From Hevea brasiliensis (taxonomy: Eukaryota > Streptophyta > Magnoliopsida > Malpighiales > Euphorbiaceae): a stretch of DNA of 64,000 nucleotides. The notes beneath the pieces were generated by a model. It worked only from the letters and a program-made list of their open reading frames with translations, was not told where the DNA came from and ran no database searches. Both the position numbers and the translations under genes were made by a program. This document shows, piece by piece, positions 8,086 to 62,566 of this stretch (the stretch's first letter is position 1; each line of letters opens with the position of its first letter). The DNA lies in assembly GCF_030052815.1 (NCBI RefSeq), contig NW_026614728.1:1-64000 (forward strand), given 5' to 3'.

Positions 8086-11000
8086 TGTAACACCCTCCCG
8101 GTAGCAACTCTGTACATTCTACTGTTCCGGTGACCGGTGTCGGTCCGGACAGCTAGAACGTCCGGAAAAATATTTAAACTAAAGTGAGGGACCATAATTA
8201 ACTCAAATATTAATAAGAAAATTTTGGTAAAAAAATTTTAGAAATAAAATATAACCGAGTTAAATGAGCCGGTGCCCAAGCGATCGGTAACCAGAGGGAA
8301 GTTGCGGTTCTCGCAATGAGGAGCCCTAGACCTAGGGGAAAAATTATAAAATAATTTTTGGGATTCCAGAGAAGGGTTATTGAGGTTCCCATGGCATTAG
8401 AATGCCAAGAAAATACCTAGAAAAATTTTTCAATCGGTACAGACAATTTTGACCCGTTAAGCCAAACGGAGGGCATTTTGGTCATTTCGCCTTCAGAGGT
8501 GATTTTTGGCCGACTTGTCCAGTTAAGTAAATAATTATTATGACATAAAATATGAATTAATATTGATAATAATTTAATTTAAAGTGAGTATAGAAGAAGA
8601 GAAAAGAAATTACAATAAAATGCCAATTATGACATATTATGAGGTCATTTAAAATTGTCCACCAATCACAATTAAGTAACCATCAAATTAACTAATAAAA
8701 AGAGTCAAAAGAGACCAAAGAATTAAAAAGCAAACAGCAGCCCTTCTTCTCCTTCAAAAACGTTTTTCACCTCCTCCCTCACTCCTCCATTAACAAACTT
8801 TCTAAAGCTTCAATTTCCATGCTTTCCTCACCCCAAAACCCTAAGTCCCTTCACTAAAAACTTGTCTCTACCTCTTGAGAATTGTTTGGCAGCCTAGAAA
8901 GGGAAAGAAAGTGAAGATTAACTTGGGAAAATTCTGCCCTATTCAGGGTTAGTGCATTAGATACTTAAAACTCTTTATTTTTTTTGATTTGTAACTTGAA
9001 TTGAGTAAGAATTGTAACTAAAATGAACAAGAATTATGTGTATACATACTATGAATTTTCAGCAGCCCTTGTGAAGGAATTATTTTGATTGTTTTGATGG
9101 ACTTAGAGTGAACTAGAGCTTATGTTTAAAGTGTATACATGTACATATACAAAGAATGAAAGAGTTGAATAAGGAATTTGTGAAAACTCATATGGGAATT
9201 AGGGTTTTGAGAAGTGAAAAATTGACTTGGCTTAGGAAATTGTTAGAGAACATTTTAATGGTCAATTAGTGACCATTTTAGGTAAGTTGACCACAATTTG
9301 GACTGAAAAATAGTATGGCAAAGTGAATGTGTAGGCTGCCCTAGGACAGCAGCAGGGTGACTGAAATTTCAGTCCACTTGGACTGCCATAACTTGGGCTG
9401 TATTGGTCAAATTGGTGTTTGGCCAATTAGACATGAAACTTGGCTTATAATGGCACATTTTTGCTGAATAAACCATGCCCAAAAGACCAAAGCAAGAGGA
9501 CCAAAAGTTGGCCCCAATCCGGACACCCTGCAACTGATTCTGCAGAATGACCAAATGAACAGTAACTGTTCATTTGGCCATAACTCACTGTAGATTTGGT
9601 CAATTGACCTGAAATTTTTACAACAACAAGTTAAGACATAGATAAACAACTTTCATGAAGGAACCAACCCCAAATTATGGCCAGAACCCATCCAAAAAAG
9701 TGATTTCAATTACTGTTCATGTTATTGTAGATATGGTAATTTCTGCAGAATGGAAATCAGGCCAGCTGTGGTTTTTGGACCATATCTAGAGCTAAAAAAC
9801 TCCAAATGGAGTGTTTCAAAAAAGGAAATTCAACTAGACAAAATAAGGAACAACTTTCATGTTTTCCATTTCTTCAAATTCCCACTGAAACAGTGTCTAA
9901 TGGAACAGTAAAGTTGAGTTACAAAAACTGAAAATTCTGCTTCCCTTGGTTTAAACTTTGAAATGGTATAAATGCTTAATGCCAACAAGTTTTGAATGCC
10001 AAATGTGGTATATTGGGAGTGCCAAAGTCAATGTACATATTTTCTATCCAAAAGTCAACATTTTTGTTGACCAATGAGGTAAATAGTGACACCAAGAACT
10101 TGAAATTCACAAATTGAAGAATTTAAAAGTTTCAAATGCCCTAGTATACCTAACAAGATTGGTTTGGATAGTTTGGCATGCCAATAGGGTTTAGTTAGCA
10201 GTACTGCACATGGCAATATACCATTCTGTGATTTTATGGTTTTTAGCCATTCTGACCTTGTATTGAGATTTGGCCTTGTGCCTGATATTATTCTGACTTG
10301 TTAGCTCTATTACACCGGAGATGCATATGTGACCGATGGTGTGACGGCCCGAGGTACTTGATACCCAGTGCCAGTTTACCTGTTTATCCAGTCCAGTCGT
10401 CTAGTGTAGGTTACGTGGGCAACCAAATGAATTAAAGTGGACAAAGTTAATGATATACAAATTCAAAACAAATGAAACATATACATTCACTACATATCTA
10501 TTTTCTTGTCTTTTATTTTATTATTGCACCACTAAGCATTATTGCTTAGCGTGTTGCTTTTGCCACGCGTAGGTTCTGGAGATACAGATCGTTAGCCCAG
10601 TAGACCGCAGACTGTGTGAGTTCATCTTGCAGCTCACGATGTCCGTGTCACCTCACTACTGCAGATTGCATTGGTAGGGCACTAGGTGTCATTTTGTCAT
10701 TTTGTAATTAAATTTTTATTTTCTCATATGTATTTGGATTTATGTAATGTATTTTGAGGTTCATGTAAATAATAAAGATTTATGGTTATGTATGGAAGTA
10801 ATTTGAGTATTTAATTGTAGTTTATATGTGAGAACCACGAGAAATGATGATTGAATCTAAACTGAACAATGTGAGATTTTGATATTGAGACTCGTTGATG
10901 AATTGAAGTTGGGATTGTTTGGAAAATTATTTGGAAGTGTTTTAACAGTTCAAGAAGCTGCTTTCTCCATTTTTAGCCGGTACTCCGCCGGATTTTCTTT

Positions 11001-11172: not shown

Positions 11173-11184
11173 TGGTATCAGAGC
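11173..11184 (+). other. Primer-binding site of A2 (initiator Met tRNA)
   Basis: TGGTATCAGAGC lies six bases after the LTR end. It is the standard plant primer-binding sequence complementary to the 3' end of initiator methionine tRNA, which starts minus-strand DNA synthesis. Confidence 0.9.
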
Positions 11185-11294
11185 ACGGTTTAGGCGTTTC
11201 TGGGCCTAGATTGAGTCCATACCATGCATTGCATTTGTAAGAGTCGAGGTGACACTAATGCAGATATGTTTGTCTTTCTTATTTTGAATAGGAT

Positions 11295-23333: not shown

Positions 23334-26000
23334 TGTCACTCCCTACCTCTCTGTAAGGCATAACATGATCCCGTAGTATACCTAATGAATTACCAAACTT
23401 CACCTATTGATAACGCATTAAATACTCTACAAGGGATTTTAAAACTTTTCTTACTTCTTTTTACAGTAGTGAGCACTATTGACAGGTGTTAAAATTTTTT
23501 TTAACTGAAGTGAAACCAAATAACACATTTGAAGTATTAATAATTTCTGTAAAAATTTTGGCAGAGTGCCATCTGTATTTTGAATTAAACAGTTCTTCAA
23601 AAACCTGTAAAAAGCACTTCCAATATTTTTCTCAATCCCAAACTCCAATAACAATTTAACACAATAATTTTCTCAACATTTATCAACTCAGTTCAACAAT
23701 CAATTTTCCAGTGTTTCCAAAAGATGAGATAAAAGAAATATGTCACAATATTTTTACAAGCTAAAATAATTTACACTTTTAATTTACAACTGCTCAAGAC
23801 CAAGTACAATATATATATACAGTGCACATACATTACAACAAAAACTACACAAAATGGTATACTTGATATACCCGACGAAATCTCAAAATGTGGTACAAGC
23901 AGCCTACTCTGCTGCTCTGTCCGTTTGTCTACCTATGACAGCAATGAAAAAGCTATCGCTGAGCCAATGTCTCAGTGGTGCATAACATTAAGAAAATACA
24001 ATTTAAAAACCATAAGCCATAAATCATATAAATAGTGGATACTTAAAATTATAGTTAAATTCAAAAGACAGTGAATGTCATAAAGAATTTAAACTCCATT
24101 TCACAATATCACAATAAATATCAATAAATCACACACACAGCTTAATCATGATTCCATAGCCCAATTCGTCCCAAAAGCCGATGGCTACTGAGGAATAACA
24201 TAGGTAGCTAGCAATAATATGAGTACTCATTCTATTCATCCTTATCAAACACACACCTCAACAAATCAGCTAGAGAAGGAATTCAAAGTCATTTCGTCCC
24301 ACTAGACAAGCTAGCGAGGAATTCAATCAATATACATGATAGCTGTGGTTTCAAACCATTTACAATGTTTTTCAAGTAAAAAGTATCCATCAAATATCAT
24401 TCAAACAAATTTTTACAATTTAAACAATAACAGACAATTTGTCATAATTCATTTCAATTGACAATTCAAAAGAAATAATTATTGTGCACAAACCTATGAT
24501 AAATGTCTCTTGGCCCTGAATCAATGTTTCCTTCCCCTTCCTTGAGTCTTTGCTAACTGAAACACACAATTTGAAGTGTTTCAATACTCATTTAAACTGT
24601 CTCTAACAATAAGGCTTAATAATTAATTTATTGAATTCTATTATTGTCCTTAGTCAACCTAAAATGTTGACCCTCGATGCACTATAGGTGAATTAGGTTT
24701 AATGTTACCAATATGTCACATTTTATAGCCTTTTAGTGTTGGTATATGTTACCAATTTCATTTCCAAGTGTATTGCATTTTATTGCAATTTATCAAATTT
24801 CGGTATACTATTTTGACCTAGCCGGACGACCTAGTTCCCTTGGTTTTTGGGTTTCGGTCCAAACTATAAACTTGTAGGTCTATGTCTTATTGCACGCGGG
24901 GGAAAATTTCAGGTCATTCTAAGTTGTATAGACAAAGATATTGTTAATTTACCAATGCTGGACAGAATGCACTAAAATGGTAGGCTTAGGTCATTTTTAG
25001 GTCACTTTTGGTTCGGCCAGTTTTGGTACCTGAAATTGTGCAAGCTATTTGGCTTGGTTCTGGTCATTTATGGGCTTTGGTGTCTTCATAATAATTGTAG
25101 ATATATGTCTAAACTATTCATGGTAAAAATTTTAGGTCAATTGGACCTGTTTTGAGTAAGTTATGGTGAAAACACTAACTGCTGCCCAAATGGTCAATTT
25201 TCAGGCTTTCAAGTCACTAATCCGGATTTGGTCATTTTTCAAGTCACCTTCTAGGCAGAATTTAGGTGAGCTTCCTTCATAAAAGTTGGCACATTTTGTG
25301 CCTAGTTTCACCTCCAATTGGTCTCATACCAATTGGAGTCACACACTTAAGGTTCTAAGTAAAACATACACTGCCCTACTACACATTCTTCATCACTTAC
25401 CAATTACACATTCTATACTTACCAAGCTAACTCTTTCATGCCAATTCTGGTTTGTACCATACCATTAACACACTTAACAACACATTTTGGTCATTTTGGA
25501 CAGCTTGTAACCATTCTCAACATACACATTATAACTCAGAATTTTCCAAAGTCCATTTACACAATTTAACCACATGAACATACCCCATTTACATATCTAA
25601 ATCCAATCTATTATACACATATACATGCTGTCACCATAAACAACATAATTCAATAAACCAAACCATGAAACAACACATTTCTAACCACACTTTAAAGTTG
25701 CCGATTCACCTCATGGAAAATATCTCCTTCAAATTGCTTTCAAGCTTCCAAAACCAAGTGCACCATTACACATACTCTTAATATACATTGTCTAAATCAT
25801 TTCTATACACATGAACACTTACATCAACATCTTAAACTACCATTAACAAGTAAAAACAAACTAAATATGCTGAGTTCCCATGGCTGTCGAAATGGTGTAC
25901 CACCATTAAATCATCAAACTTCAAAACTTCTTCCACAAAACAACTCACCACAACATCCACTTAAAGTTTAATGAAATAAGAATGGAAAATACACACTTAC
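23334..26000 (-). repeat. D: reverse D-type solo LTR, segment 1
   Basis: Starts TGTCACTCCC and matches the reverse of LTRs H and G (58400-59020, 60109-60751) through the ATGATCCCGTAGTATACC block and the double hairpin. It is split at 26000 by element B and completed by 48396-49270, for about 3.5 kb in all. The 5-mers bounding the reassembled LTR are ATCTC (23329-23333) and ATATC (49271-49275), a target duplication with one change. There is no internal region of its own, so it is a solo LTR. Confidence 0.85.
23936..23975 (-). other. Tandem double hairpin in LTR D
   Basis: On the minus strand, CTGAG pairs with CTCAG around ACATTGG, then GATAGC pairs with GCTGTC (one G-U). The order and spacing match the other LTRs. 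Confidence 0.65.
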
Positions 26001-32610: not shown

Positions 32611-32649
32611 GCGACAGCATACAAAGTTGTCGCTGAGTGGTGAACTCAG
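32611..32649 (-). other. Tandem double hairpin in E 3' LTR
   Basis: On the minus strand CTGAGT pairs with ACTCAG, then GCGACA with TGTCGC. The second stem has C-G where D, G and H have U-G, a compensatory change. Confidence 0.75.
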
Positions 32650-33014: not shown

Positions 33015-33083
33015 GATTCTAACTCCCTATGGTCGGGGAGGTCGAATCAGATTCTAACTCCCTATGGTCGGGGAGGTCGAATT
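33015..33083. repeat. 35-bp tandem duplication in E 3' LTR
   Basis: Two adjacent copies begin GATTCTAACTCCCTATGG, each holding a CTCCC...GGGAG hairpin. Present identically in the other E LTR (39689-39758), so it predates insertion. Confidence 0.9.
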
Positions 33084-36017: not shown

Positions 36018-36031
36018 ATTCTCCCCCCCTT
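36018..36031 (-). other. Polypurine tract of element E
   Basis: Minus strand AAGGGGGGGAGAAT lies directly before the 3' LTR. Confidence 0.85.
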
Positions 36032-38480: not shown

Positions 38481-38658
38481 TTCTCTTCCATATCTTTTCA
38501 CAAGTTTTTCTATTCCTGTACAACCAACATAAGGAGATTCCTCTCTATTAGTTCATATTTATGATGTAAATGTACTACATGTATCAAACATTTGAGCAGT
38601 TGTAGTTACCGACAAAAAGATTTCAAATTCACAGTTCGAAATTCACTTTAAAACCATT

Positions 38659-38670
38659 GCTCTGATACCA
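38659..38670 (-). other. Primer-binding site of element E (initiator Met tRNA)
   Basis: Minus strand TGGTATCAGAGC, eight bases from the 5' LTR end. Confidence 0.9.
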
Positions 38671-39284
38671 CAAAACATGTCACACCCTACTCCCCTGTAA
38701 GATGCAACATGATCCCGTAGTACACCTAATGAATTACCGTACTTCGCCTACCAATAACCCATTAGATATACTACAAGGGATTTTAAAATAATTTTCGTGA
38801 AATTTAAATCATCGGTTAAAATCTAGTGTTAAATTTTTTTTTTTTCAAAATTTCGGCAAAGTGCCGGCTGTATTTTGAGAAAACAGTTCTTAAATCCTGC
38901 AAAAGAAAATGCTCCCAATACGTTTTCTCAAATACAACTTCAATAACTTCATTTCAATTCACAATTCAATTCTCAATAAACAATCAATTCATTTTGAAAC
39001 TACTCTCATCATAAAGAAACATTTCATTAATTACAAGACTCAAAATTTATAATACAAAACTATTCAAGTAAATGAAATCTCAACTTTATATTTACAATAA
39101 TTTACATTTAATTACATACCAAAATATTTTACAAGAGTTTTTATACAACTGCTCAAATAATTTACATACATATTATTACATGCATACATCAAAACCTATG
39201 TACATGGGTATACCTCTGATATACCCGAGTGATCCGAATATGTCTTCAAGGAAACTTATTCACTGCTCTATGCTCTTTTTACCT

Positions 39285-39323
39285 GCGACAGCATACAAAG
39301 TTGTCGCTGAGTGGTGAACTCAG
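39285..39323 (-). other. Tandem double hairpin in E 5' LTR
   Basis: Same stems as in the 3' LTR: CTGAGT with ACTCAG and GCGACA with TGTCGC. Confidence 0.75.
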
Positions 39324-39688
39324 TGGTGCACAACTATAATTTAAAACATAGTACTATATACATTGACAAAATTTACAGTAAATAATTTGGAAATCAGAAT
39401 ACTCATCAAATTCCAAAACTCAAAATATTCATTACCAATAATGTAAATCATTTGTATAAATGACTTTGATCACAAAATTCAATTTATCAAATCATGACTA
39501 ACCATTTAAGTAATTCCAACAAAATCAATTATACAAAAACCATAATTGAAATCACAATTCTTTACCATTCAAAAGCCATTCTGTATCTCAAAAATCATTA
39601 TGCATCTTAAAAATCATGTTGTATCTCAAAAATCAATCTTTATCTCACTAACTATGCAAGACTAATCCGAAAGGGCCATATTCGATGT

Positions 39689-39758
39689 GATTCTAACTCC
39701 CTATGGTCGGGGAGGTCGAATCAGATTCTAACTCCCTATGGTCGGGGAGGTCGAATCA
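39689..39758. repeat. 35-bp tandem duplication in E 5' LTR
   Basis: Two copies of the unit found at 33015-33083. Confidence 0.9.
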
Positions 39759-42701
39759 TCGTGCACAGTACCATCACAATAATGAATCTTCCGCAAGGGC
39801 CATAACAATAAAATAAACTTAGATCTAAACTCAAATCGAGGAAAATCTAAGCCTGCACGTACCATGGTAATCAAAACACAACTAACTCCATTGTCTTCTC
39901 AACAAATGAGAGAGATGGGTAATAACCTAGTCAAGCATCTATAGTGAGATATAAAACAATATCACAATCCTTTTAGTGAGCATAAATCACAATATAATTC
40001 GATTTAAAGTCAATTCCAATATCCAATAATTTTTATGCTCATCACAATTTAGATCATAAATTTGCATTTTTCCATGAAAATTACCATCACAATTCAAAAC
40101 ATGTTCTATCACAATTTTTCAAAACATAATTTATTAAATCCATAACAATGCTTAATACTTGTGGAAAAACCATTTCACAAAGCTAAATTCATACATACTA
40201 TAACAATTTCAATAATCATTGAATTAAATCTAATGCTTGCTGAACATAATACATAAGAAAAATATGTCATTTTCGAAATATTCAAAACAAAATCAGTTAA
40301 AAACTAGTTGTGCACAAACCTCGGATAACTGTCTCCTGGTCTTGACTCAGTGTTTCCTTCCCTTTCCCTGAGTCTTTGCTAACTGAGAAACACAATTTGA
40401 AGTGTTTCAGTACTCATTTTAACTGTCTCTAACTATAATGCTTGATAAGTAATTCACTGAATTCTAATATTTGCTTAGTCAACCTAATATGTCGAACCTC
40501 GATGCATTCTAGGTAAATTAGGTTTTAATGTTATTAATATGTTACATTCGATAGTATTTTAGGGTTGGTACATGTTACCAAATCCATTTTTATGTATTTT
40601 GCATTTTCTTGCAATTTGCTGGATTCTGGGATACTAGTTTGACCTAGCCGGACGACCTAGTTCCCTCAGTTTTCGGGTCTTGTTCAAAACTACAAACTTG
40701 TAGATCTATGTCTTATTACACGCGGGGAAAAATTTCAAGTCATTCCGAGTTATGTAGACCAAGTTATGGTCATTTTACTATTGCTGGTCAAATTGCACCA
40801 AAATTGGTCATTTTAGGTCACTTTAGGTCATTTTAGGTTCGGCCAGTTTTTGGACCCGAAATTGTGCAAGCTGTTTGACTTGCTTATGGTCATTTCTGGG
40901 CTTTGGTGTCTTCATAAGACTTGTAGATATGGGTCTTAACTATTCATGGTTAAAATTTCAGGTCAATTGGACCTGTTTTGAGTGAGTTATGGCCTAAACA
41001 CTAACTACTGCCCAAATGGTCAATTTTCAGGCCTCAATTGCACTTAATCCGGATTTGGTCATTTTTCAAGCTACCTTGCAAGCAGAATTTTGGCAAGCTT
41101 CCTTCATGAAAGTTGGCACATTTTGTGCCTAGTTTCACCACCAATTGGTCTCATACCAATTGGAGCCACACATTTAAAGTTATAGGCCTAAAACTCAAAC
41201 TGCCTTATTGCATTTCTTGCATACACATCAAGCATCACTTTTAACACTCACCAAACTTAACATTTAAACCAATTCTGGTTGTACCACAACCTAAACATAA
41301 TTCACAACACATTATAGGTCATTTTGGCAGCTTACAATTACATTCAACATACACCAACAAGTGCAGAATTTTTTCAATCCAATTTACAACAATTCAATCA
41401 CCTTTTTATGCTCATTTACATGTCCCACTTCACACCACCTTAAACACACTCAAACTGCCATAACAACCAACACATTTTAACATTATTATTCCATAAACCA
41501 AGAATGAATTCCAGCATTCCTCAAGAGTTAGCAAACTACCACAATGGTACACTTACATTCCATTACTTTCGAAGCTTTAAATCTCATTTTACATTTACAT
41601 ATACTAAGTATACATTACCCAAACAATTTCCTACACAATATACATTTAATCAATCATTTAATTCACCATTTACAAGAACAAATAAACTGCCTTCAAGGTG
41701 TTTCCATGGCTGCCAAAAGTACACACTCCCATTCAACATCAAACCTCAAAAATTTCTCCATAAATCAAACACCCATAACCTCATCACAAACTTTAATGAA
41801 GCACTAATCAAAAATACATACTTACCACTTTGGAAACTCTTCAAAACTTCACCAAAACTTGATCTTCTTACTGCCTATCTACTGCCCATGGTGTGAGGAT
41901 TAACTTTAATGAAGGGAAGTGGAGAGAAAGAAGCTTGGATCACCCTTGCATGGAGCTCCAAAACCATGCGGCAATGGAGTTCTTCCCTTCTCCATTTTTG
42001 GCTGAATTTTGAGAAATAAGGAAGATGATAATCTGCTGGTCCAAGATGAAGATTAAATGGTCCACTTTAATGTGTTAGTGGAGCACTATTGCAAGTTTAA
42101 TGTTAATTTATTCAAAAGTTTCAATTTCCCACATTTAACTCCCCATTTTTGCTATTTACATTAGGTACCCCTAAATTAATTTTTCATTATATTTTCCAAG
42201 TGTAATATTATTTATTTTTGATGGACATTTAGGTCAAAAGACAACTCGGGGTGTCAAATGACCACAATGCCCCTGTTCGGGTTGCATTCCCGATTTTTCG
42301 GTAACACCGGATTTTGTCCATTTTTTTATTTCTCACTTTTCTTTGTACTAATTAATTAATTTTTCTTTGATATTTCTAATAGTATTTGTACTTCAATAGG
42401 TGTCTATTTAAGTCCTAAAAGTATTTTCTAGGGTTCCCCGCGGTCCAGGGCTAGTCAACGGTCCACGCCGCGACTTCCCGGTGCGGTCACCCATCGCTAG
42501 GGTTCTCGGCTCGCTTAACTTGGTTACATTTCTTTGCTATTATTTTTCCTTTATTTTTCTTGTATTTTCTTTTCTTGTATTTCATTATTTTATGTCTCCT
42601 CAACCATAATGAAGTGTAGTTCTAGGCATCCTAGCTGTCCGAATAACACTGGTCACAGGAACAGTAGAACGCACTACCGAACTTAAGGGTGTTACAAATA
42701 A

Positions 42702-43640: not shown

Positions 43641-44830
43641 GGCCGTTAATGCTTTGACTACTGTGAGTGTTACCAGACCCCTACCGCTTCTACCTCTAGC
43701 ACCGATCGTGACCCTCTAGGTGTAGAGACTTGGTGATCCTCGATGTAGCAGAAGGTCCAGATCAGCGGACTAGTGCAATCCTTAGCGAAATGTTTGCTCC
43801 CTCCACAGTTAAAACATGCACCGGTGGCCTTGAAACAAACCCCACTATGAGTTCTACCACAAGTTTCACACTGCCATACTGATAGAGCTCCTCGGGTGCT
43901 CTGGTCCGCCGACTGCATCGGGTGGTCTTTGGCCGTAAAATCTGCCTCACGGATCTACGGGAGCTGGATCCCCCAAACTGTTTCCTCTTTCCAGAACCAC
44001 TCTTAGATGCTTGTCCCGTAGTCTTTTCAGTCTTCTCTTTCTCTTGTGTACCCTTCTTCACTGCCCCTTCTGATTCTATCCTTTCCAGTTCTAGGGCCTG
44101 TGAGATCAACTCAGCAAAATTCTGATGTCGAAACCCACGACTTGCATCCTCGATTCGGCCTTAACCCGGACTCAAACCTCTTACATCTATCTCTCGGGTG
44201 GAGACTAAGCTTCCAAAGATAGTGGCTTAGCCTAGAAAAGTCTCTCTCATACTCTGCTATGGTTCTGTCTCTTTGTTTCAAACTCAAGAATTCTTGTAAT
44301 TTCATATCTACATACGCATCAGGAACCCATTTCTACCTGAATTCCCTCAGGAAGTCTATCCATGTCAGTACAGGTGGCTCAACCAGGCTGTGGGGGATGG
44401 TCTTCCACCATTCATACGCATCCCCTTGGAGAAGAGATACTGAATACTCAAATTTTAATTTTCAAGATAATCGCAGCTTTCTCAAAACCTGCTCCATTCT
44501 TTCCAACCACTTTCTACCTCGGTGGATCCACGGTTTTAAACTCGGTGGCCCCAAATTTCATCAATTTTTCATATTGCCGAGTTGAGGGTGGTTGTGCTCA
44601 GTGCTTGCATTTGAGCTTGGGGTGGCACATTACTCACCATTTCTTTGAAAAACGCAGCCATCTCTGCATAAACCGAAAGGTGGAATCGGTCTTTGGAGTA
44701 GGAGCCGGAGTGGTGACCCACTCACGTTCCGAGGCCGGGCTTCCTTGAACCTCAGCCTCAACAGATTATTCTACAGAATGATCTCCTTCTTCCATTAAGT
44801 TTTCCCAAAATTTCTACTTCCTGAGATCAA
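43641..44830 (-). pseudogene. gag: gag of element B, frameshifted
   Basis: On the minus strand the order is an N-terminal stretch (FFKEMVSNVPPQAQ region, about 44660-44600), capsid pieces (FLSLKQRDRTIAEYERDF, about 44290-44230; RDRCKRFESGL about 44185), a basic linker (EKTEKTTGQASKSGSGKRK, about 44035-43975), and the zinc region CETCGRTHSGVCFKATGACF with knuckle CFNCGGSKHFAKDC (about 43825-43785). Several frameshifts and stops separate the pieces. Unlike E and G, the capsid core is present. Confidence 0.82.
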
Positions 44831-44984: not shown

Positions 44985-47900
44985 TGTCACACCTTACCCC
45001 TCTGTAAGGCATAACATGATCCCGTAGAATACTTAATGAACTACCGAACTTCACCTACCGATAACTCATTAAGTACCCTACAAGGGATTTTAAAACAATT
45101 TTCTTACATTTTGGAAGTGGTGAGCATTTTGGTAGGAATTAAAAACCATTTATTCAAAGTTTAAATACTAGTAAAAATTTTTGTCCATTTTAATTTTGCC
45201 GCAAATTTTATAAAAATTTTGACAGAGTTCCGTTTGTATTTGGAGAAAACAGTTCTTCAAATACCTAAAAAAAACACTTCCAATAATTTTCTCAACTCCC
45301 AACCTTCAATTAATCTCAAACAAACTCAATTCAATTCACTTCAAAATAATTCCACAATCCAAATCAAAATTTATCATCTCAAAATATTTAGTAACTTCAT
45401 TCCCAAGGCATAAGTATGAAATTCACAAATACAAATATTAATTTACAGAAGGAAATCCAAAAGTAATATTATTACAATTTATTTTACAACTACTCAACTT
45501 TACATTGATACATAAAGCGTTATAATATTTACATCAAAATTAACTACAAGGGTATAAAATAATACCCGTACAAAAGATCAATGTGGTCCTCAATTCAATA
45601 GCACTCACTCTAACGCTTTCCTTGCTCTTATCTGTAGGATAAAATAAGCTATCGCTGAGTATAAAAATACTCAGTGGTGCACAATAAAAATTTAAAATAC
45701 AATACATAAATCATTCATTGATGAAACACAATTTAAATATTTCTCAATCACATTTCACAAATTATCAAAGCTCATAATAACACAATTTAGCCAAATAATT
45801 TATTAAACACAGTGTTGCCAAAATCATACACAAATTAAGCTATGACACAAAATTTTTGATCAATGCCGTGTTGTACACCACGACAAAGCAATCTACAACC
45901 CCATTAATCGAAATCAATGAGGGAGGTGGCTAGCTAATGAGTACTCATTCGATCTCAGCCTCAACTGGCAAGCCAGAGAGGGAGAAAAATAAACGATCTC
46001 AACCCCATAAGTGGAGGAGGAATAATGTGATACTGTCAGGCTAAGTGTGAACACAAAATCAATTCAAAAAAATTTATTTAAATAATTTATGAGAAATATG
46101 ATCAATTTCCAAAGTCATATTTGCGATTATAAAATGACAACACAGTACATAATTAATCACAGAAGTCAAATTTTTGAGAATAAAATATTTAAACAAGAAT
46201 TAATATGCATAGACCTGACGTGAGTCGCCTCTAGGCCTTGACTCAGTCTCTCAGAGCTTCCAAGCCTTTTTTTGCTGAAACACAGCTTCATAGTGTTTCA
46301 GTACCATAACTTAGCATAAATCCAAAAATAAATTTAACTTCACTTTTACATAGCTCGAACGTGCTAAATTCGACGTTCTCGAAGTTTTTGTATTTCGGGT
46401 TACTATTCACTACACTATTCAAGTCAAATTATTGACTTTTTAAGGCTTAATAGGTATGAGAACTCCAACTTCACCCACATACCACATTTTGGTCATTTTC
46501 TCAAAGCTTAAGTCCTTTAGGAAAAATTGTCAAATTTTCAGTTTTGGTATTCCTTGTTGCACTGTTCCATTGGTCATTTTACTATTAGAATTTAGCAAAC
46601 CTTTCTTCATAGAAAATGTTTCCTATTTTCTTAAGTTTATTATCCTTTTTGAATCACTCAAATTGGAGTTTTGTAGCTCAAGTTATGGCCATTTGAACCA
46701 TGGTTGCCGGATTGGACACAACCCAGATTTTCTGGGCAATTTTGGTGCTGGCAGTTTTGGGTCACCAACTTGGGGTGGCCAAATGGCTTAGTTTCTGGCA
46801 GAATTTGGGCTTGTGTTCTTCATGAAAGTTTTAGGTCTATATCTCATCTAACCTCTGGTAAAATTTCAGGTCATTTTGACCTGCCTAGCTCATGTTATGG
46901 CCAAATGAACAAATACTGTTCATTTGGTCAGTTTGTACAGGGACAAACTGAGATTTTCCGAATTGAGTCAATTTGTTCACTAGGTTTTGGTCACTTTTTG
47001 GGCATGGTTCCTAAATGAAAATTGTGTCATTTAGTGTCTATTTTCATCCCCAATTGGTCCCATACCAATTGAACTTGTAAAATTTCACTTTTGGTCTCTC
47101 AAAGGAAGTTTGGTCATGCTGCCACACTCCCTCCGAATTTAGCTTTAACTCCAACCATTCCAACACAACTCATTTGGTCACAAATGACCATTTTTCACTT
47201 CACAATAGGTCAAACATATCATTTCTCCAAATTTTTGCCATTTCTCCAAATTTTTGCCTCAAAGCCCTAGGTCTCAAACCCTAATCACACTAATTCATTG
47301 CATTTAATCACATTTAAGCATTTCAATCTTACTACCACTTTCATATAAGCTTACTAACAAATTTAATTCATTCAAAACACATCATATTCTCATACATCCA
47401 TGGCTGGCTGAAATTCCCTTTGGTCCTCTATAAATGTTTTCTTTTGATTTTAATTAAATTTCCAGGTTACTCAAACCACAAACATACCAATAAACTAAAA
47501 TTTTCAATTTAGATTGCTTACCTCAACTTTGATATCCAATCTTCAATTTTTCTCCTCTTTTCTTCTTTCTTTCTTGTTAAATTTCTTTCTCAAGGGAAGG
47601 GAATAAGGTTTTATAGAGTGATTATGGAAGAAGTTGTGATTTGGTAAGAGTTTCAAAGCTTGAAGACAAGCTTTAATGGAGGAATTTTCATGGAGAAATA
47701 AGGGAGAGAGTGAGGCGGCAATGGGAGAAAGGAAGATGACTTAATTTTTTTTTCTTTTCTTTTCTTTTATTTAATTTGTCTTATGGAAGACCCCAAAAAA
47801 AAAATCTAATTAATTAAATATATGAATTATTACTTTTATGGCATCATGCATGATGTCATCTCCTTACACTTTTTCATTTTTTTTTCTATTAGTTCTTTAA

Positions 47901-53273: not shown

Positions 53274-55390
53274 TGTAACACCCTTATGTTCGGTAGTGCG
53301 TTATACTGTTTCGGTGACAGTGTCTGTTCGGATTGCTAGGATGCCTAGAACTACATTTAAACGTTAGTGAGGAGACATAGAATAATGAAATACAAGAAGG
53401 AAAACACAAGAAAAAAAAAAGGAAAAATAATGGCAATGAAATGAAACTAAGTTAAATAAGCCAATACCGTAGCGATGGGTGACCACACGGGAAAGTTATG
53501 GCGTAGGCAATAGTCAACCCCAGGACTGCAGGAAACCCTCGAAATTTAGTTTCAAGACATAATTAAAGACTTATTGAAGTATAAATGTCATTAGAAATAT
53601 CAAAAAAAAATTAATTAATTAGTACAAAGAAAAACGAGAAATCGCGAAAAAGACAAAACTCGGTGTTATCGAAAATCAGGAATACAACCCGAATCGGGGC
53701 ATTGTGGTCATTTGACACCCATAGTTGGCCTTTGACCTAAATTTCAATGAAAAATAAATGGTATTACATTTGGGAAAATCAAATGAAAAATGGAATTAAA
53801 GATAAAATATAAATTAAGAGAAATTAAGGTTAAAATTGTAATTTTTGAAATCTCAGATTATAATACCATTAATCTAGGTTTAGTGGAGCACTAAGTGGAT
53901 ACATTAATACTTAAAATGGGGGCAAAATCTTCCACTCACTTCATCATCCTCACCAAGCTCTCCCATGGCTGAAAGTGGTGTCCTAACTTTCCTCCATGGA
54001 AACCACCCATGCAAGCTTGAGATCACCTTCATTTCAAGCTAAATTCTTGAACTTTCTTCATTAATCTGTGCCTACACACCTTGGGCAGCAATAAGAGAGC
54101 AAGAAAGATAAGTTTTGATGGAGTTTTGAAGAAGTCCAAAAGAGTTAAGTGGTTATTTTCAATTCTTGTTTCATTAAAAGTGTAACTAAGGTTGTGGGTA
54201 ATTGAATTATGGAAGAATTTTTGAGGTTTGATGAATTGTTGGTGATGGAGCATTTTGGCAGCCATGGAACTTCATCATGTACAGCTTGTATTTGCATGTA
54301 AATGGTTGTTGAGATGTTAAATTAAGTGTTTAAATGTATTGGAGTTGGTTTTCATGTATAAAGTTTGATTTGTAAGCTTGAAAAGTAAAAATGGAAGCTG
54401 ATGTGTATGTGTAATTTTTAGACAGCCTTAAAATGGAAATTGATAAGGTTCAAATTCATGAAATGTTGTTGAAATATTGTACAAAAGAATGGTAGCATAT
54501 ATGTGTGTGGAATAGTAGTGATAGGTATGTAATTTGATGATGGAAGTTTGTGTGATAATTAGAAGTATTTATGTGTATATATTATTGGGATTGAACTAAT
54601 GAATTGTGACTGCATTTGGTGTATTTTGGAAGTGGTTATATTCTGTCCATGTTGACCTATAATGTAGAGAATTGAATGGTTTTGGTTAGTTCCAAATGCA
54701 GAGTGGTATGGAGAAGTGAGGAGGTAGTTGGTGAATGTGTGTTGGTTTGGTGTTTGGAAAGCATGTAGAAGGCAGTGTGCAAATGGATCTGTAACCCTAA
54801 GTGTGTGGCTCCAATTGGTATGAGGATAATTGGAGGTGAAACTAGGCATAAAATGTGCTAACTTTCATGAAGGTAGCCAACCTAAAATCTGTCCACAAAG
54901 TGACATAAGAATTGACCAAATCTAGATTAGTGACTTGAAAGCCTGAAAATTGACCATTTGGGCAGCAGTTAGTGTTTTGACCATAACTTACTCAAAACAG
55001 GTCCAATTGATCAGAAATTTTTACCATGAATAGCTTAGACATAGATCTACAATTCGTATGAAGACACCAGAGCCCAGAAATGGCCAGAACCAAGCCAAAT
55101 AGCTTGCATAAGTTCAAGTACCGAAACTGGCCGAACCAAAAGTGACCTAAAAATGACCTAAGCCTACCATTTTAGTGCATTTTGTCCAACATTGGTAAAT
55201 TGACTATATCTTGGCCTACACTACTTAGAATGACCTGAAATTTTGCTCCGCGTGCAATAAGACATAGATCTACAAGTTTGTAGTTTGGAACAAAACTCGT
55301 AAACTGAGGGAACTAGGTCATCCAGCTAGGTCAAAATAGTATACTGAAGTCCGGTAAATTTCAATAAAATGCAATACACTTGAAAATGAA
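53274..55390 (+). repeat. 5' LTR of G, segment 1
   Basis: Starts TGTAACACCCTTATGTTCGG and aligns closely with 62567-64000. The donor-like site reads AGAGTTAAGT near 54144, where the 3' LTR has AGAGGTAAGT (63439), so this copy has lost the GT. It is interrupted at 55390/59021 by solo LTR H. Confidence 0.92.
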
Positions 55391-57622
55391 TGTAACACCC
55401 CTATGTTCGGTAGTGTGTTCTACTGTTCCAGTGAACAGTGTTGTCCGAATAGCTAGAATGCCTAGAACTACACTTCGATATGAGTGAGGAGACATAAAAT
55501 AATGAAATACAAGAAAAGAAAATACAAGAAAAACAAAGGAAAAATAATAGCAAAGAAATGTAACCAAGTTAAGCGAGCCGAGAACCCTAGCGATGGATGA
55601 CCGCACCGGGAAGTCACGGCGTGGACCGTTGACTAGCCCTGGACTGCGGGAAACCCTAAAAAATATTTTTAGGACTTAAAGAGACATCAATTGAAGTATA
55701 AATATCATTAGAAATATCAAAGAAAAATTAATTAATTAGTACAAAGAAAAGTGAGAAATCAAAAAACAGACAAAATCTGGTGTTACCGAAAAATCGGGAA
55801 TACAACCCGAACAGGGGCATTATGGTCATTTGACACCCCGAGTTGTCTTTTGACCTAAATGTCCATTGAAAATACGTGATATTATATTTGGAAAATGTCA
55901 TGAAAAATTAAATTAGGGGTACCTAATGTAAGTAGCCAAAAGTGGAATATAATTTGAGTAATTAGCACTTAAACATATAATATAATTAAAAATGGGTGAA
56001 TGGAGCACTATGGGGATTAAATAAACACTAAGTGGGCAGGTTACTTCCACTCACACTTCATCTTCAACCTTTCAAAACCACCATTGCCGAAATGAAACCC
56101 ATCCAAACCTCCATAGCCGAAACTTGAGTGAAGCTTCATAACCTCCTCCATTCCACCTCCAAACACCAAAGTTGCTTCACTAATCTTGATCCCCACCTCA
56201 CAAGGAAGAAGTAGATACTAATTTCAAGGGAGTTTGGTGAAGATTTAACAAGCCTCATCAATAGGTAAGTTTGTATTTTTTATTGTTGTTTTGTTAAAGT
56301 TTGTAAGGATGTTATGGGTGTTTGATTTATGGAGAAATTTTTGAGGTTTGATGTTTAAAGGGGGAAGTGTACTTTTGGCAGCCATGGAAACACCTTAAAG
56401 ACAGTTTATTTTTGCTTGTAAATGGTGAATTAAAGGATTGATTAAATATATATTGTGTAGGAAATTATTTGGGTGATGTATATTTAGTATATGTGTATTG
56501 AAATTTGAATGCTTAGAAATTATGGGAATGTAATGCATGAAATGGCAGCCCGGTTTGGTGAACCATAAGGATGTTATTACATGTTTGGATTATGGAATAT
56601 TAATGTTGAATTGTGATAGTGGTTATGGCAGTCTGAGTGCATTTATGATGGTGTGAGGTTGGACATGTAAAAATGTTATTGTTAGGTGATTGAATTGTTA
56701 TAAATTGGGTTTGAAAAATTCTGTACTAAATGGTGCACATTGAATGTAATTTTAAGCTGCCAAAATTACCTATAATATGTTGTGAATTATGTTTAGGTTA
56801 TGGTACAACCAGAATTGGCTTGAATGTTGAGTTTGGTAAGTGTTAAAAGTGATCCTTAATGTGTATGAAGGAAATGCAATAAGGCAGTTTGTGTTTTGGG
56901 CCTAGAACTTTAAGTGTGTGGCTCCAATTGGTATGATACCAATTGGAGGTGAAACTAGGCACAAAATTTGCCAACTTTCATGAAGAAAGCTTGCCAAAAT
57001 TCTGCTTCCAAGGTAGCTTGAAAAATGACCAAATCCGAATTAAGTGCAACTAAGGCCTGAAAATTGACTATTTGGGCAGCAGTTAGTGTTTAGACCATTA
57101 CTCACTCAAAACAGGTCCAATTGACCTGAAATTTTGACCATGAATAGTTAAGACCCATATCTACAAGTCTTATGAAGACACCAAAGCCCAGAAATGATCA
57201 TAAGAAAGTCAAAAAGCTTGCAGAAGTTCGGGTCCAAAAACTGGCCAAACCAAAATTAACCTAAAATGACCTAAAATGACCAATTTTGGTGCAATTTGAC
57301 CAGCAATAGTAAAATGACCATAACTTGGTCTACAAGTTTGTAGTTTTGACCGAAACCCGAAAACTGAAGGAACTAGGTCGTCCAGCTAGGTCAAACTAGT
57401 ATCCTGGAATCCAACAAATTGCAAGAAAATGCAATATACAAGGAAATGAATTTGGTAACATGTACCAACCCTAAAAGACTATTGAATGTGACAAATTAGT
57501 AACATTAAAACCTAATTTACCTAGAACGCATTTAGGGTCAACATATTAGATTGACTAAGCAAATAATAGAATTCAGTGAATTAATTATCGAGCATTATCG
57601 TTAGAGACAGTTTAAATGAGTA

Positions 57623-57650
57623 CTGAAACACTTCAAATTGTGTTTCTCAG
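57623..57650 (+). other. Conserved CTGAAACAC hairpin in LTR H
   Basis: CTGAAACAC pairs with GTGTTTCTCAG (one bulge) around TTCAAATT. Equivalents occur in B1 (about 5654), B 3' LTR (27304-27334), D (about 24558), E (about 33719) and G (about 59208) at the same relative place. Confidence 0.65.
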
Positions 57651-57939
57651 TTAGCAAAGACTTAGGAAAAGGGAAGGAAACACTGAGTCAAGACCAAGAG
57701 ACAGTTATCAGAGGTTTGTGCACAACAGTTAATTCTTTTGAATTTTTCAATTGAAATGAATTATGACTATTTGTACGTTATTGTTTTAAATTGTGGAAAT
57801 GTGTTTGAATGGATACTTATTGCTTGAAAAACATTGTAAATGGTTTGAAACTGTGAAAAATTGTGTGAATGATATTGATGGATAAGAATGGATTGACAAG
57901 CAGTGGAAAAGGTTTGAAACCACAGCTATCATGTATATT

Positions 57940-58140
57940 GATTGTATTCCTCACTAGCTTGTCTAGTGGGACGAATTGAATTCCCTCTCTGGCTGAAGTG
58001 TTGAGGTGTGTGCCTGTTGAGGACGAATTGAATGAGTACTCATATTTTTGCTAGCTAGCTATGTTGTTCCTCATTAGTCATCGACTTTTGGGACGAATTG
58101 AATACCTCATTAGCCATCGGCTTTTGGGACGAATTGAACT
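57940..58140 (+). repeat. Hairpin array with GGACGAATTGAA repeats in LTR H
   Basis: GGACGAATTGAA occurs four times (about 57969, 58021, 58091, 58127). Three copies follow or sit beside a short hairpin: CACTAG with CTAGTG, and AGCC with GGCT. Related arrays with different stems are in LTRs D, B and E. Confidence 0.6.
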
Positions 58141-58399
58141 TTGGAACATGATTAAACTGTGTGTGATTTATTGATATATATTATGAGATTGTGAAATGGA
58201 GTTAAATTCTTATTGACATTCACTGTCTTTTGAATTTAATCATAATTTGATTTATTGAAATTATTGTGATATTGAGAAATGGAGTTTAAATTCTTATTGA
58301 CATTTACTGTCTTGAATTTGACTATGGTTTTAAGTATCCACTATTTATATAACTTGTGACTTGTGATTTAAAGTTGTATTTGGTTAATGTTGTGCACCA

Positions 58400-58439
58400 C
58401 TGAGACATTGTCTCAGCGATAGCTTTTCATTGCTGTCGC
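58400..58439 (+). other. Tandem double hairpin in LTR H
   Basis: CTGAGA pairs with TCTCAG around CATTG, then GCGATAGC with GCTGTCGC (eight pairs, one G-U). The acceptor-like CAG ends at 58441. Confidence 0.75.
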
Positions 58440-58570
58440 AGGTAGAAAGACTGTGGCAAAGAGACTAAGTCGCTAGAGCATTCAAATGAGAGATCATCGT
58501 ATATTGAGTACACCTCATTTTGCATTTTGTACTGTAATGTATGTTCACTGTATGTATATTTTGTTCTTGG

Positions 58571-58860
58571 TGGTGTTAAAAACCTTGTTGAACTGAAGTA
58601 AATTAGCTAACACATTTAGACTACTAGTAATTTCTGTAAAAATTTTGGCAGAGTGCCATCTGTATTTTGGATAAAACAGTTCTTCAAAAACCTGTAAAAA
58701 GGCACTTCAATATGTTTCTCAAACTCAACTCCAACAGTTAAACAACACAATATATTTTTCAACTCAATTCCATAATAATTTTTCAAAGACTGAGATTAAA
58801 GAGATACAGTACAAAATTTAAAAGTCAAAATAATTCATAATTTATTTTACAACTTCAAGG
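58571..58860 (-). repeat. Inverted segment inside LTR H
   Basis: This ~290-bp piece matches the reverse complement of the corresponding parts of LTRs G and D. It carries ATTTTGGCAGAGTGCC in the orientation expected on the opposite strand. The flanks on each side are in normal orientation, and flipping the piece restores alignment with G at both junctions. Confidence 0.85.
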
Positions 58861-59301
58861 TACAATTTTATTTTATAGTGCTCACCACTGTAAAAAAAAG
58901 TAAGAAAAGTTTTGAAAATCCCTTGTAGTGTATTTAATGGGTTATCAGTAGGCGAAGTTGGTAATTCATTAGGTATATTATGGGATCATGTTATGCCTTA
59001 CAGAGGGGTAGGGTGTGACAATGAAATTGGTAATATATACCAACACTAAAGGGCTATAAAATGTGACATATTTGTAACGTTAGAATTGACTCACTTAGAG
59101 TGTATCAAGGGTCAACATTATTGGTTGACTAATGAAATGAATTGAAGGGAATAGTACCAAGAAAATTTAAATATTGGATTTTACGATTAGAAACAATTTA
59201 AATGAGTACTGAAACACTTTAAATTGTGTGTTTCAATTGAAAAGGATATTGAGAAGCATAAGGGACATTGAGTCAAGGCCTAGAGGCGACTCAAATTAGG
59301 T

Positions 59302-59680
59302 TTGTGCACAATACTTTTTATATTCACTGCTTTTACTAGAAACTTTATTTGGAGAAATGAGTTGTGAGTTTATGACTTGGAAAATTTTATTTGAGAAAAG
59401 TGTATTGCCTATTTTAGAAATGGAAATTCGAAAATGCGGTTTGTTTGATTGTTGCCTGAATTATAATTGAACATTATAGTTTTAAATTGTGTCTGTGCAC
59501 AATACGTTTTATATTCACTGCTTTTACTAGAAAATTTATTTGGAGAAATGAGTTATGAATAATTTTTTATTGTTTTGGCTTTGGGAATCTTAATTGGAAA
59601 TTATTGTGTTGCCTACTTTGCAAATGAAAATTTTGAGATAAAATATGATTTGTGATTTGTATGAAATATTTAAATATTGT
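59302..59680 (+). repeat. ~190-bp tandem duplication in G 5' LTR
   Basis: TGTGCACAATAC...TATATTCACTGCTTTTACT occurs at 59303 and again at 59494, followed in both by TTTATTTGGAGAAATGAG. Spacing is about 191 bp. The related LTRs D and H show a single copy. Confidence 0.85.
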
Positions 59681-60108
59681 GATTTGGAATTATTTTGATT
59701 CACACTTGGCATGACAATATTACTATATTCCTCCTCCATTTATGGGGTGAGTGTGATTATATTCCTCCCTCTTTGACTTACCAGTCTGAGATGAGTGTAG
59801 ATGAGTACTCATTATCTAGCTAGCTTCCTCCCTCATTGATTTCGATTATTGGGGTGAGTGTGCCTTATCGTGATGTACACATGGCATGTTCGGTAAAATT
59901 TGTGTCATGGCCTAAATTGTGTTATTGATTGGCAAAACTGTGTTATTCAGTTATTTGATCAAATTGTGTTATTGATTGGTAACACTGTGTTATTTAATTG
60001 TTTGATCAAATTTGTGTTACATGAGCTTTGAAACATTGTGAATTGTTTGGATTGTAAATTGTCAACAAAAGTTTTACATACCGCATTTTAAATTTTTATT
60101 GTGCACCA

Positions 60109-60151
60109 CTAAGTAAATTTTACTCAGCGATAGCTTTTTCATTGCTGTCGC
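60109..60151 (+). other. Tandem double hairpin in G 5' LTR
   Basis: CTAAGTAAA pairs with TTTACTCAG (one A-C mismatch), then GCGATAGC with GCTGTCGC. Confidence 0.72.
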
Positions 60152-60759
60152 AGGTAGACAGACGGACAGAGCGGCAGAGTAGGCTACTTGTACCACATTT
60201 TGAGATTTCGCTATATTGAGTATATCATATTGTGTAGTTTTTGTTGTAATGTATGTGCACTGTATGTATACATTGTACTTGGTCTTGAGCAGTTGTAAAC
60301 TAAAATTATAAATTATTTTGGCTTGTAAAAATATTGTGACATATTTCTTTTATCTCATCTTTTGGGAACACTGGAAAATTGATTGTTGAACTGAGTTGAC
60401 AATTATTGAGAAAATTATTGTGTTGAATTGTTATTGGAGTTTGGGATTGAGGAATTATATATTTGAAGTGCTTTTTACAGGTTTTTGAAGAACTATTTTA
60501 TTCAAAATACAGATGGCACTCTGCCAAAATTTTCACAAAAATTATTAATATTTTAAATTTGTTATTTGGTTTCACTTTAGTAAAAGAAAATTTTTAACAC
60601 CTGTCAATAGTGCTCACCATTGTAAAATGAAGTAAGAAGAGTTTTAAAATCCCTTATAGTGTATTTAATGGGTTATCAGTAGACGAAGTTGGTAATTCAT
60701 TAGGTATACAACGGGATCATGTTATGCCTTACGGAGGGGTAGGGTGTGACATGTTTTAG

Positions 60760-60771
60760 TAGTATCAGAGC
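60760..60771 (+). other. Primer-binding site of G, one base changed
   Basis: TAGTATCAGAGC, one G-to-A change from the usual TGGTATCAGAGC, eight bases after the LTR. Confidence 0.85.
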
Positions 60772-60940
60772 AAGTTTTTAAATTATGTTTTGACCTGTAA
60801 TTTGAATATTCTTTCTTCATAGTACAACTGCTCAATGTCATTGTTTGATACATACAGTACATTACATTATAAATATGCACTAACAGGAGGAAATCTCCTC
60901 GTGTTGGTTGTATAGGAAATAAAAAATCATGTGAAAAGAT

Positions 60941-61660
60941 ATGGAAGAGAAAAATGAGATAATAGAACAGTCTGTGATCAAGTTGAGGCCCCAGCTCCAC
61001 AAAGTATCGAAGGCCCGACTGTACCAGTTTTACCGTTACAAATTACTGCACAAATGGCCTAGCAAATGGCCACTTTCTTTTAACAAAAGGCTGATACTCT
61101 ATCAACTCAAGCTCAAGTACAAACCCAACCCCCACAAGGGCAGTGTGAAATTAGAGAAGAGGGAGAAACCTATGGGTCAGAGCTCGAGCAGTAATTTGGG
61201 GAAGAGAAAAGAATTTGAGGAACCCCGAGCTCAGGGATATAACAGAGGTGGATCATCAGGGCAGAGACCACCAAGGTCTAGTCGTCGAATAACTAGAAGT
61301 TCCTACCCTCCCCGCCAATGTGAAACTTGTGGTAGAAATCATGGTGGGGTATGCTACAAGGCCATAAGAGCCTGTTATAACTGTGGAGACATAGGACACT
61401 TTGCCAAGGACTGCACCAGTGCCCGTAGAGTTGGGCCACCTCCTACTACTGTTGAAGGGTCAGTTCAGAATCCTGTCACCAGAGGTTCACAACCACCTGG
61501 CAGAGGTAGAGGCCGGGGTAGATGTAGTCCATCAAGCAACCAAGGCACAGTGAATCACTCAGAGCAAGGTAGTGCTCCGGTCAGAGTCTATGCAATGAGA
61601 CAGAGAGAAGAGGCTGAGACTTTTGACATTGTTGCTGGCAATTTCTTGATTAGTAACTAA
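60941..61660 (+). pseudogene. gag: Nucleocapsid-type gag of G (239-codon ORF with a shifted middle)
   Basis: The ORF is open from ATG to TAA. Residues from about 68 are genuine gag: EKREKPMGQSSSS, a glycine/arginine-rich basic stretch, CETCGRNHGGVCYKAIRAC, and a full CX2CX4HX4C knuckle (CYNCGDIGHFAKDC, residues 145-158), then a GRGRGRGR linker and the first residues of protease. Residues about 13-67 are gag N-terminus read in the wrong frame: compared with E there is a 10-nt deletion near 60979 and a compensating 1-nt insertion near 61151. The capsid core is missing. If made, the product would be a small RNA-binding protein, not a particle former. Expression is unknown. Confidence 0.75.
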
Positions 61661-62547: not shown

Positions 62548-62566
62548 AAAGGGGGGGGGGGCGAAT
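62548..62566 (+). other. Polypurine tract of G
   Basis: AAA followed by eleven G residues and CGAAT, directly before the 3' LTR start. Confidence 0.85.

Follow-up and report, generated by a model that had tools for sequence, protein, structure and literature searches.

Spliced RNAs of LTR retrotransposons and retroviruses

In a 2025 review (PMC12786077), plant retrotransposons bounded by long terminal repeats (LTRs) are described as generally intron-less, with Ogre and EVADE named as exceptions; splicing is on record for Ogre, BARE1, EVADE, Bagy2 and CRR, none of which, in the descriptions consulted, has a donor inside the LTR. Ogre, a Ty3/gypsy element of pea and Medicago, carries an intron between gag-pro and the reverse transcriptase–RNase H–integrase region that lets the polyprotein be read, and splicing of the Ty1/copia elements BARE1 and EVADE is described as yielding a subgenomic RNA (PMC3735527; for EVADE, the review PMC12786077). 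For BARE1, PMC3735527 assigns the spliced RNA to Gag and another RNA to replication, and calls the use of one LTR-element RNA as both message and genome a major question. Outside plants, the major splice donor of foamy viruses (Spumaretrovirinae) lies within the R region of the LTR and precedes the poly(A) signal (PMC3694450).

The locus described here, a stretch of 64,000 nucleotides (nt) of Hevea brasiliensis DNA (contig NW_026614728.1, hereafter the window), harbours mutually related plant LTR retrotransposons of the Ty3/gypsy type, nested in one another and labelled A1, A2, B1, B, C, D, E, G and H. Their LTRs contain a well-supported candidate for a conserved 5' splice site, preceded by exon-like and followed by intron-like sequence, and there is about an even chance that an intron runs from this donor, some 870 nt from the LTR start, to a main acceptor that lies in the internal leader, shortly before gag, so that splicing would split message from genome. 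That a leader intron of some kind exists appears likely.

The predicted arrangement would share with BARE1 and EVADE the production of a subgenomic RNA, although the cited texts describe neither of these with an LTR-borne donor or with a primer binding site (PBS) inside the intron. It is not of the Ogre type, since the donor lies in the LTR, the predicted intron is upstream of gag and no coding sequence would be removed. The order of donor and putative poly(A) zone resembles that of foamy viruses, in which gag is translated from unspliced RNA, whereas gag would here need splicing. In most retroviruses the PBS lies upstream of the donor, so that spliced RNAs retain it, but in the elements of the window the PBS would be within the intron; the retroviral leader also has a structured element downstream of the donor, present on unspliced RNA only, which is reminiscent of the hairpins described below. 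Neither an LTR intron in this group nor the order of PBS within an intron followed by gag was found in the titles and abstract openings of the open-licence literature searched, the words 'intron', 'spliced' and 'splicing' were not found in a survey of CRM elements (PMC3059260), and 'spliced' and 'splicing' were not found in a paper on LORE1 (PMC2832683). If the proposal holds, a PBS-holding intron would cleanly separate the roles of message and genome and would explain LTRs of 3–4 kb, and the elements would depend on host splicing.

The donor-like site and its flanks

A donor-like site at nearly constant distance from the LTR start had been proposed in the original prediction, an earlier reading of the same DNA, which listed ten coordinates, and the motif is found at all ten. 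It reads GTTAGT in A1, both A2 LTRs (one at 8948..8953, forward strand) and B1, GTAAGC in both B LTRs (one at 47516..47521, reverse strand), and GTAAGT in both E LTRs (one at 41820..41825, reverse strand), in G and in H, where the predicted 5' splice site occupies 56265..56270 (forward strand). When the first 1100 nt of the LTRs were aligned with MAFFT, with the site left unmarked, GGTWAGY fell into one set of columns, 826–888 nt from the LTR start in 11 of 12 LTR copies. One of these 11, the D LTR, was absent from the earlier list and has GTAAGT at +871 (25995..26000, reverse strand), at the junction with an inserted B element. This B element sits exactly at the D donor (25996–26000 and 48396–48400), and because the two copies of the target duplication, CTTAC and CTTAT, differ by one base, the D donor was read from the first copy (CTTAC), at 26000. 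The exceptional copy is the 5' LTR of G (53274..60751, forward strand), in which the donor has been lost by a GT>TT change (TTAAGT at 54145), and which carries the hairpin motif at 60102 and a T-tract CAG ending at 60480.

Judged by complementarity to U1, the donor ranks 1–3 among the 101–268 GT dinucleotides of each of the 11 LTRs (first in Ea, Eb, G3 and D, second in A2L, B1, Bb and H, and third in A1, A2R and Ba; a and b, L and R, and 5 and 3 tell apart the copies of one family), and the features of a plant U2-type 5' splice site (AG/GTAAGT, U1 complementarity) are found in 11 of the 12 copies. Beyond about +550 the flanks hardly reveal the kinship of the families, with average pairwise identities of 0.41–0.55 among eight representatives, and only two windows in this region have five invariant columns of seven, namely the donor and a CTCCAT about 155 nt upstream of it. 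A strong U1-complementary site lies within one 63-nt window in all eight representatives, as against at most four of eight in 3000 dinucleotide-preserving shuffles of the region from about +550, a comparison that is not a formal probability of function because the sites themselves supplied its energy threshold (−7.5) and window width and because the families share ancestry; the A2L copy (−7.2) would fall short of the threshold. The donor is very likely a genuine 5' splice site.

Composition averaged over families changes at two positions. At 220 nt upstream of the donor C climbs from 0.14 to 0.30 as A drops from 0.48 to 0.26, a break that likely marks the start of transcription; C then remains at 0.26–0.40 until −60, the 60 nt abutting the donor are purine-rich (0.60–0.74), and the first 40 nt past it have T at 0.47–0.51 and C at 0.09–0.11. 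The breaks at −220 and at the donor would fit a CT-rich exon followed by a T-rich intron, and plant introns are about 15% more U-rich than their flanking exons according to a figure cited in the BARE paper (PMC3735527). In E, H, G and D, T over the first 600 nt after the donor is 0.39–0.40, compared with 0.24–0.31 in exon 1. The predicted leader exon of H, about 220 nt long, would span 56045..56264 (forward strand), its start being placed from the averaged break. Exon 1 has 1–4 ATGs per 200 nt in the nine copies counted, and by a hand estimate a depletion of upstream ATGs in the exons, relative to base composition, is not clear and is not claimed.

Several observations weigh against such an exon–intron boundary. 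A and B show little gain in T over the first 600 nt (0.28–0.32, compared with 0.27–0.30 in exon 1), and at single donors the compositional change is mixed, ranging from the top 0.3% to the top 71% of positions depending on copy and window size. An unbiased segmentation by composition begins near the donor in five of 11 LTRs (both E copies, H, G and D, at 811–871) and not in A1, A2, B1 or B, and in just two cases does it end close to an acceptor candidate, each time the T-tract AG (19 nt away in Bb and, by GC skew, 9 nt away in A2L). No conserved TATA box was found upstream of the donor; a TTAAATA about 250 nt upstream is confined to Ba, Bb and H.

The missing TATA box would suit a different arrangement, in which there is no intron of note, gag is expressed from a second promoter downstream of the donor-like site, and the motif is conserved for some other reason. 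A precedent is BARE, in which two promoters serve two RNA pools, one TATA box each giving rise to capped and to uncapped RNAs (PMC3735527). Such an arrangement is nevertheless unlikely in the elements of the window, where the motif fits positions −1 to +6 of a 5' splice site and is kept between families whose flanks can hardly be aligned.

About 260 nt before the donor, near the presumed promoter, E and D have GTGCTCCACTA (with one mismatch in Ea), and G and H have GGAGCACTA, the reverse-complement core of GTGCTCCACTA; the sequence resembles the invariant TGCACCACT. The unbiased segmentation was also tried as a locator of the acceptor and was dropped, as it gave no consistent position.

Acceptor candidates and the predicted intron

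Three AG dinucleotides were compared as 3' ends of the intron. They were ranked by two scores, the first of them cruder (it ignores the branch point and penalises a close upstream AG), and by a strict rule, fixed after the sites had been viewed, that asks for CTRAY 22–45 nt before YAG/G with no AG late between them. In plant U2-type introns a CTRAY branch point is expected 18–50 nt before a YAG, and branch-point matching was repeated under eight rule sets, some of which demand a G after the AG, which the hairpin AG lacks in B and the T-tract AG lacks in A2L.

The candidate favoured as acceptor, at about an even chance, is a YAG/G in the internal leader of A2, B, E and G, 124–164 nt past the LTR end and 3–25 nt before the putative gag ATG. 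It is a TAG at 11289..11291 in A2 (forward strand; putative gag ATG 3 nt further on, at 11295), a CAG at 44821..44823 in B (reverse strand; putative gag ATG beginning at 44795), a CAG at 38516..38518 in E (reverse strand; putative gag ATG beginning at 38491) and a TAG at 60913..60915 in G (forward strand; putative gag ATG at 60941). The AG lies 31–33 nt after the A of a CTAAC or CTAAT, and in B, E and G a small hairpin, seen by eye, stands between this branch-point-like sequence and the AG. Between donor and gag ATG the strict rule has a single sense match per element, which is the gag-proximal site in all four. Under all eight rule sets this site is matched in four of four elements, compared with 0–1 of four for the T-tract AG and 0–3 of four for the hairpin AG, and the cruder score ranks it second in A2, first in B and third in E.

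This choice has weaknesses of its own. Antisense controls are as dense as the sense strand or denser in seven of the eight rule sets, and antisense matches to the strict rule outnumber sense matches by 7 to 4, or 6 to 4 in the run of eight sets; with a rule set after the fact and more matches in antisense, weight attaches only to where the matches fall. Looser branch-point rules give up to 75 sense matches, and the cruder score leaves the gag-proximal site of G outside its top six. Only four elements have a leader in the window, E and G among them being close relatives, and the putative gag start was assigned by eye, in A2 upstream of a gag that is frameshifted soon after its start.

The original prediction had instead ended the intron at an AG at the base of a conserved hairpin about 600 nt before the LTR end. 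Hairpin and AG are indeed present at the positions given, 579–655 nt before the LTR end, and the AG is retained in all ten copies with recognisable hairpins, as YAG in nine and as GAG in A2R; C, too, has a TAG. No other candidate precedes the poly(A) zone, so that this one could delimit a terminal exon in the 3' LTR; it has a T-rich stretch (T 0.50) 100–60 nt upstream, and by the cruder score it ranks 1–2 in H, G, D, Ba and Bb, 4–5 in E and 11–15 in A1 and A2L, so that it outranks the T-tract AG in G, D and Bb and is outranked by it in Ba, Ea and Eb. By the second score, however, it ranks only 3–111 and lies under the T-tract AG in nine of nine copies, and it shows the smaller change in composition of the two in 25 of 27 comparisons (nine copies, three window sizes). 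As an acceptor it would leave 8–17 upstream ATGs in the LTR-derived portion of exon 2, and the branch-point rule finds it in none of the four elements under six of the eight sets, and in two and three of four under two sets using YTNAY. Its conservation can be explained by RNA structure alone. Two of the pairs of sites need correction: those named for G lie in different LTRs (60153 in the 5' copy, 63439 in the 3' copy) and form no pair, because the acceptor would precede the donor, and although both sites exist in H, this is a solo LTR with an inverted segment (58572–58859) just downstream of the supposed acceptor. Of the earlier intron, the conserved donor and its exon-like and intron-like flanks stand, its 3' end is not supported as the main acceptor, and two conserved alternative acceptors had been overlooked. 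Splicing to the hairpin AG seems quite improbable, and this AG more probably belongs to a conserved intronic structure.

The second overlooked candidate is a CAG after a T-tract, located 219–280 nt short of the LTR end and in several copies preceding a GAAGAAC (CAG at 10946..10948 in A2, forward strand; TAG at 45265..45267 in B and CAG at 38897..38899 in E, both reverse strand; a CAG ending at 23605 in D). An intron ending here would lie wholly in the LTR and would remove the poly(A) zone and most upstream ATGs, with the PBS staying on the spliced RNA. The AG is kept in 10 of the 12 LTRs reaching the region (B1 has CGG, H the inverted segment), including C, which was not used in its definition; by the second score it ranks 1–2 of 174–238 AGs in A1, Ba, Bb, Ea, Eb, G5 and D, and fifth and ninth in A2R and A2L; the C content, 0.01–0.04 between −100 and −10, reaches 0.24 at +20 to +50. 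C nonetheless falls back to 0.08–0.09 at +50 to +110, another AG stands 12–16 nt upstream, and the cruder score places the site in its top six only in Ba, Ea and Eb. A CTRAY lies in range in none of the four elements under four CTRAY sets, and in one of four under two looser sets. Spliced RNA from such an intron would still be reverse-transcribable and, the PBS being left on it, intron-less LTRs could arise, yet none is found among 11. An intron ending at the T-tract AG is an unlikely alternative.

The course proposed for the gag-proximal acceptor builds on what is seen in the sequence (donor conservation, averaged composition breaks, hairpin covariation and the positions of the acceptor-like sites and putative gag ATGs), from which we infer the transcription start, the use of the sites, the fate of the two RNAs and the role of the hairpins. 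Transcription would begin about 220 nt before the donor, and the intron, from the LTR donor to the gag-proximal acceptor, would hold most of R, the hairpins, the poly(A) zone, U5 and the PBS, with predicted lengths of 2.3 kb (A2), 2.7 kb (B), 3.3 kb (E) and 3.1 kb (G, where the LTR is counted without the nested H). Splicing would produce a gag or gag-pol mRNA with a short leader, rid of nearly all upstream ATGs, of which 59 (A2), 72 (B), 111 (E) and 76 (G) lie between donor and gag; the first ATG past the gag-proximal AG is the putative gag ATG in three of four elements, G having one earlier ATG that is closed at once by TGA. Because the spliced RNA would be without the PBS it could not be reverse transcribed, and RNA escaping splicing would be the genome, the only RNA to undergo reverse transcription. 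The hairpins, lying inside the intron, would mark the unspliced RNA and may act in its packaging or export, in polyadenylation or in the control of splicing. The earlier suggestion that an intron separates translated from packaged RNA would fit this course.

The tetranucleotide TGTA is a plant poly(A) upstream signal. Averaged over ten LTRs, it occurs 1.7, 3.0 and 2.1 times per 50 nt in the bins 550–400 nt before the LTR end and 1.1 times in the preceding bin, compared with 0–0.8 in the 16 remaining bins within 1 kb of the LTR end; in A2 the zone, placed from this mean, is 10618..10767 (forward strand). As TGTA is densest inside the predicted intron, a poly(A) site probably lies there too, and since the zone precedes the T-tract AG, RNA in the 3' LTR would end before that candidate. 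This order, with the donor upstream of a TGTA-rich zone within the presumed R, also invites a comparison with foamy viruses, in which the elements follow in the same order and U1 at the donor blocks the 5' poly(A) site (PMC3694450). The donor in the window might likewise bind U1 small nuclear ribonucleoprotein mainly to block premature poly(A) cleavage in the 5' LTR, splicing being secondary. Its distance from the TGTA zone, well over 1 kb in the families measured, would however be far for direct suppression by U1, and the gag-proximal site would be left unexplained, which makes this role as the main one highly unlikely.

The intron interval is retained in 11 of 11 LTRs showing both ends, and, in this small sample, removal of the PBS with the intron would account for the retention. 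E (32001–42696) and G (53274–64000) lack most of pol, share similar non-coding internal sequence and look like non-autonomous relatives moved in trans; both keep the candidate splice sites, G having a donor only in its 3' LTR copy, and retention without most of pol suits a role in cis. Extended to a whole group of long-LTR Ty3/gypsy elements, the proposal would be that Gag is made only from spliced RNA, that the intron removes PBS, poly(A) zone and U5, that the choice between message and genome is irreversible, that the double hairpin marks the genome and that the intron explains the long LTRs; taken together, these claims are tentative and rather less probable than not.

Tandem hairpins and the nest of elements

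The motif TGCACCACTRAG is exact in 11 of the 12 LTRs reaching the hairpin region, C having three mismatches, and two hairpins follow it directly with no spacer. In H the invariant TGCACCACTGAG, the tandem hairpins and the acceptor-like CAG, ending at 58441, occupy 58393..58441 (forward strand); the corresponding stretches are 10525..10572 in A2 (forward strand; AG ending at 10572), 45632..45681 in B (reverse strand; 3' arm of the second hairpin degraded) and 39283..39330 in E (reverse strand), and in D the motif begins at 23982 (reverse strand), ahead of the tandem hairpins. The inner pairs of hairpin 1 vary yet still pair (CA/TG in A, TAT/ATA in B, T/A in E, AC/GT in H, TAA/TTA in G, none in D), and their summed pairing in six representatives was equalled in 340 of 200000 shuffles. 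The arms of hairpin 2 pair at 7 of 8 positions within A and at 6–8 of 8 within the other group, compared with 1–4 of 8 between the groups. Judged by this covariation, the tandem hairpins are real, with compensatory changes. In B1 both hairpins have decayed, as has the second one in Bb; the minimum of single-sequence folds does not always include both, and, wobble pairs and A–C mismatches both being present, neither RNA nor the strand is proved. Rfam gave no match at gathering thresholds. A role of TGCACCACTRAG as a second pairing site for the initiator tRNA was considered and dropped, because a conserved A–C mismatch against the tRNA sequence would remain.

The LTRs were delimited by self-comparison, terminal motifs and target duplications. 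On the forward strand lie the A1 LTR (435–3351), the B1 LTR (3519–7041), the A2 5' LTR (8086–11167) and second A2 LTR (15918–19006), the G 5' LTR (53274–55390 plus 59026–60751, by self-comparison), split by the H solo LTR (55391–59020, flanked by the target duplication ATGAA/ATGAA), and the G 3' LTR (62567–64000, by self-comparison), cut by the window end and with an intact GTAAGT at 63439. On the reverse strand are the D LTR in two pieces (49270–48401 plus 26000–23334), a B LTR (29456–26001) and the B 5' LTR (48395–44985), and an E LTR (36017–32001) and the E 5' LTR (42696–38678). A further LTR, C, shows only its 3' part in the window.

Open frames scattered over several elements match the Pfam families Retrotrans_gag, RVP_2, RVT_1, RT_RNaseH and an integrase-end SH3, so that the Ty3/gypsy features (domains, LTR pairs, PBS, target duplications) are all present when domains are pooled across elements. 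A chromodomain is matched weakly by Pfam Chromo in an A1 fragment (E 0.0012, 19.2 bits, under the 25.1-bit cut-off) and in an A2 piece (0.016), and a B piece has no match to Chromo. The named proteins among the matches listed (120 of 7997) are from angiosperms, for example Tanacetum, Hevea and Xanthoceras. The PBS of A2, TGGTATCAGAGC (11173..11184, forward strand), is presumably complementary to initiator tRNA-Met, and ARAGORN found no tRNA genes in the window. The LTR start TGTAACACCC and the very long LTRs hint at the Tekay clade and are taken as leads only. A direct-RNA study of sunflower (PMC7730604) reports spliced isoforms, with no Tekay element reported in its expressed set.

Relatives were also sought in other collections. 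A reverse transcriptase piece had no match among viral contigs, an integrase piece had no confirmed match among genome contigs, and the hairpin pattern had two matches in viral contigs, without LTR context and taken as chance. The pattern of LTR end plus PBS gave one viral-contig match and nine contigs (L004–L012) of seven named bacterial assemblies, in which a plant-type junction of LTR end and PBS is likely plant contamination. GCACCACTRAG is present in none of the nine at up to one mismatch. Six of them (L004, L005, L007, L008, L011 and L012) were scanned for donors upstream of the LTR end; five gave best U1 energies between −6.2 and −7.7, and L012 gave −11.5 at a site 3.3 kb upstream of the LTR end. 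These contigs look like other families and are uninformative on generality.

Some features of the nest stand apart from the intron. E is a young insertion, its LTRs being 96.8% identical, and copies of about 2.1 kb lie in opposite orientation on either side of the D–B–E nest (20992–23102 and 49879–51957, 90.6% identical). The segment 58572..58859 of H is inverted relative to its counterparts in the LTRs of G (60284–60601) and D, with sequences like GGTGTTAA and TTAACACC close to its ends. Within the final 220–280 nt of the LTRs, the presumed U5 has a conserved block (for example GAAGAACTGTTTTCTC) and, after it, a short hairpin (for example CGGCACTCTGCCG).

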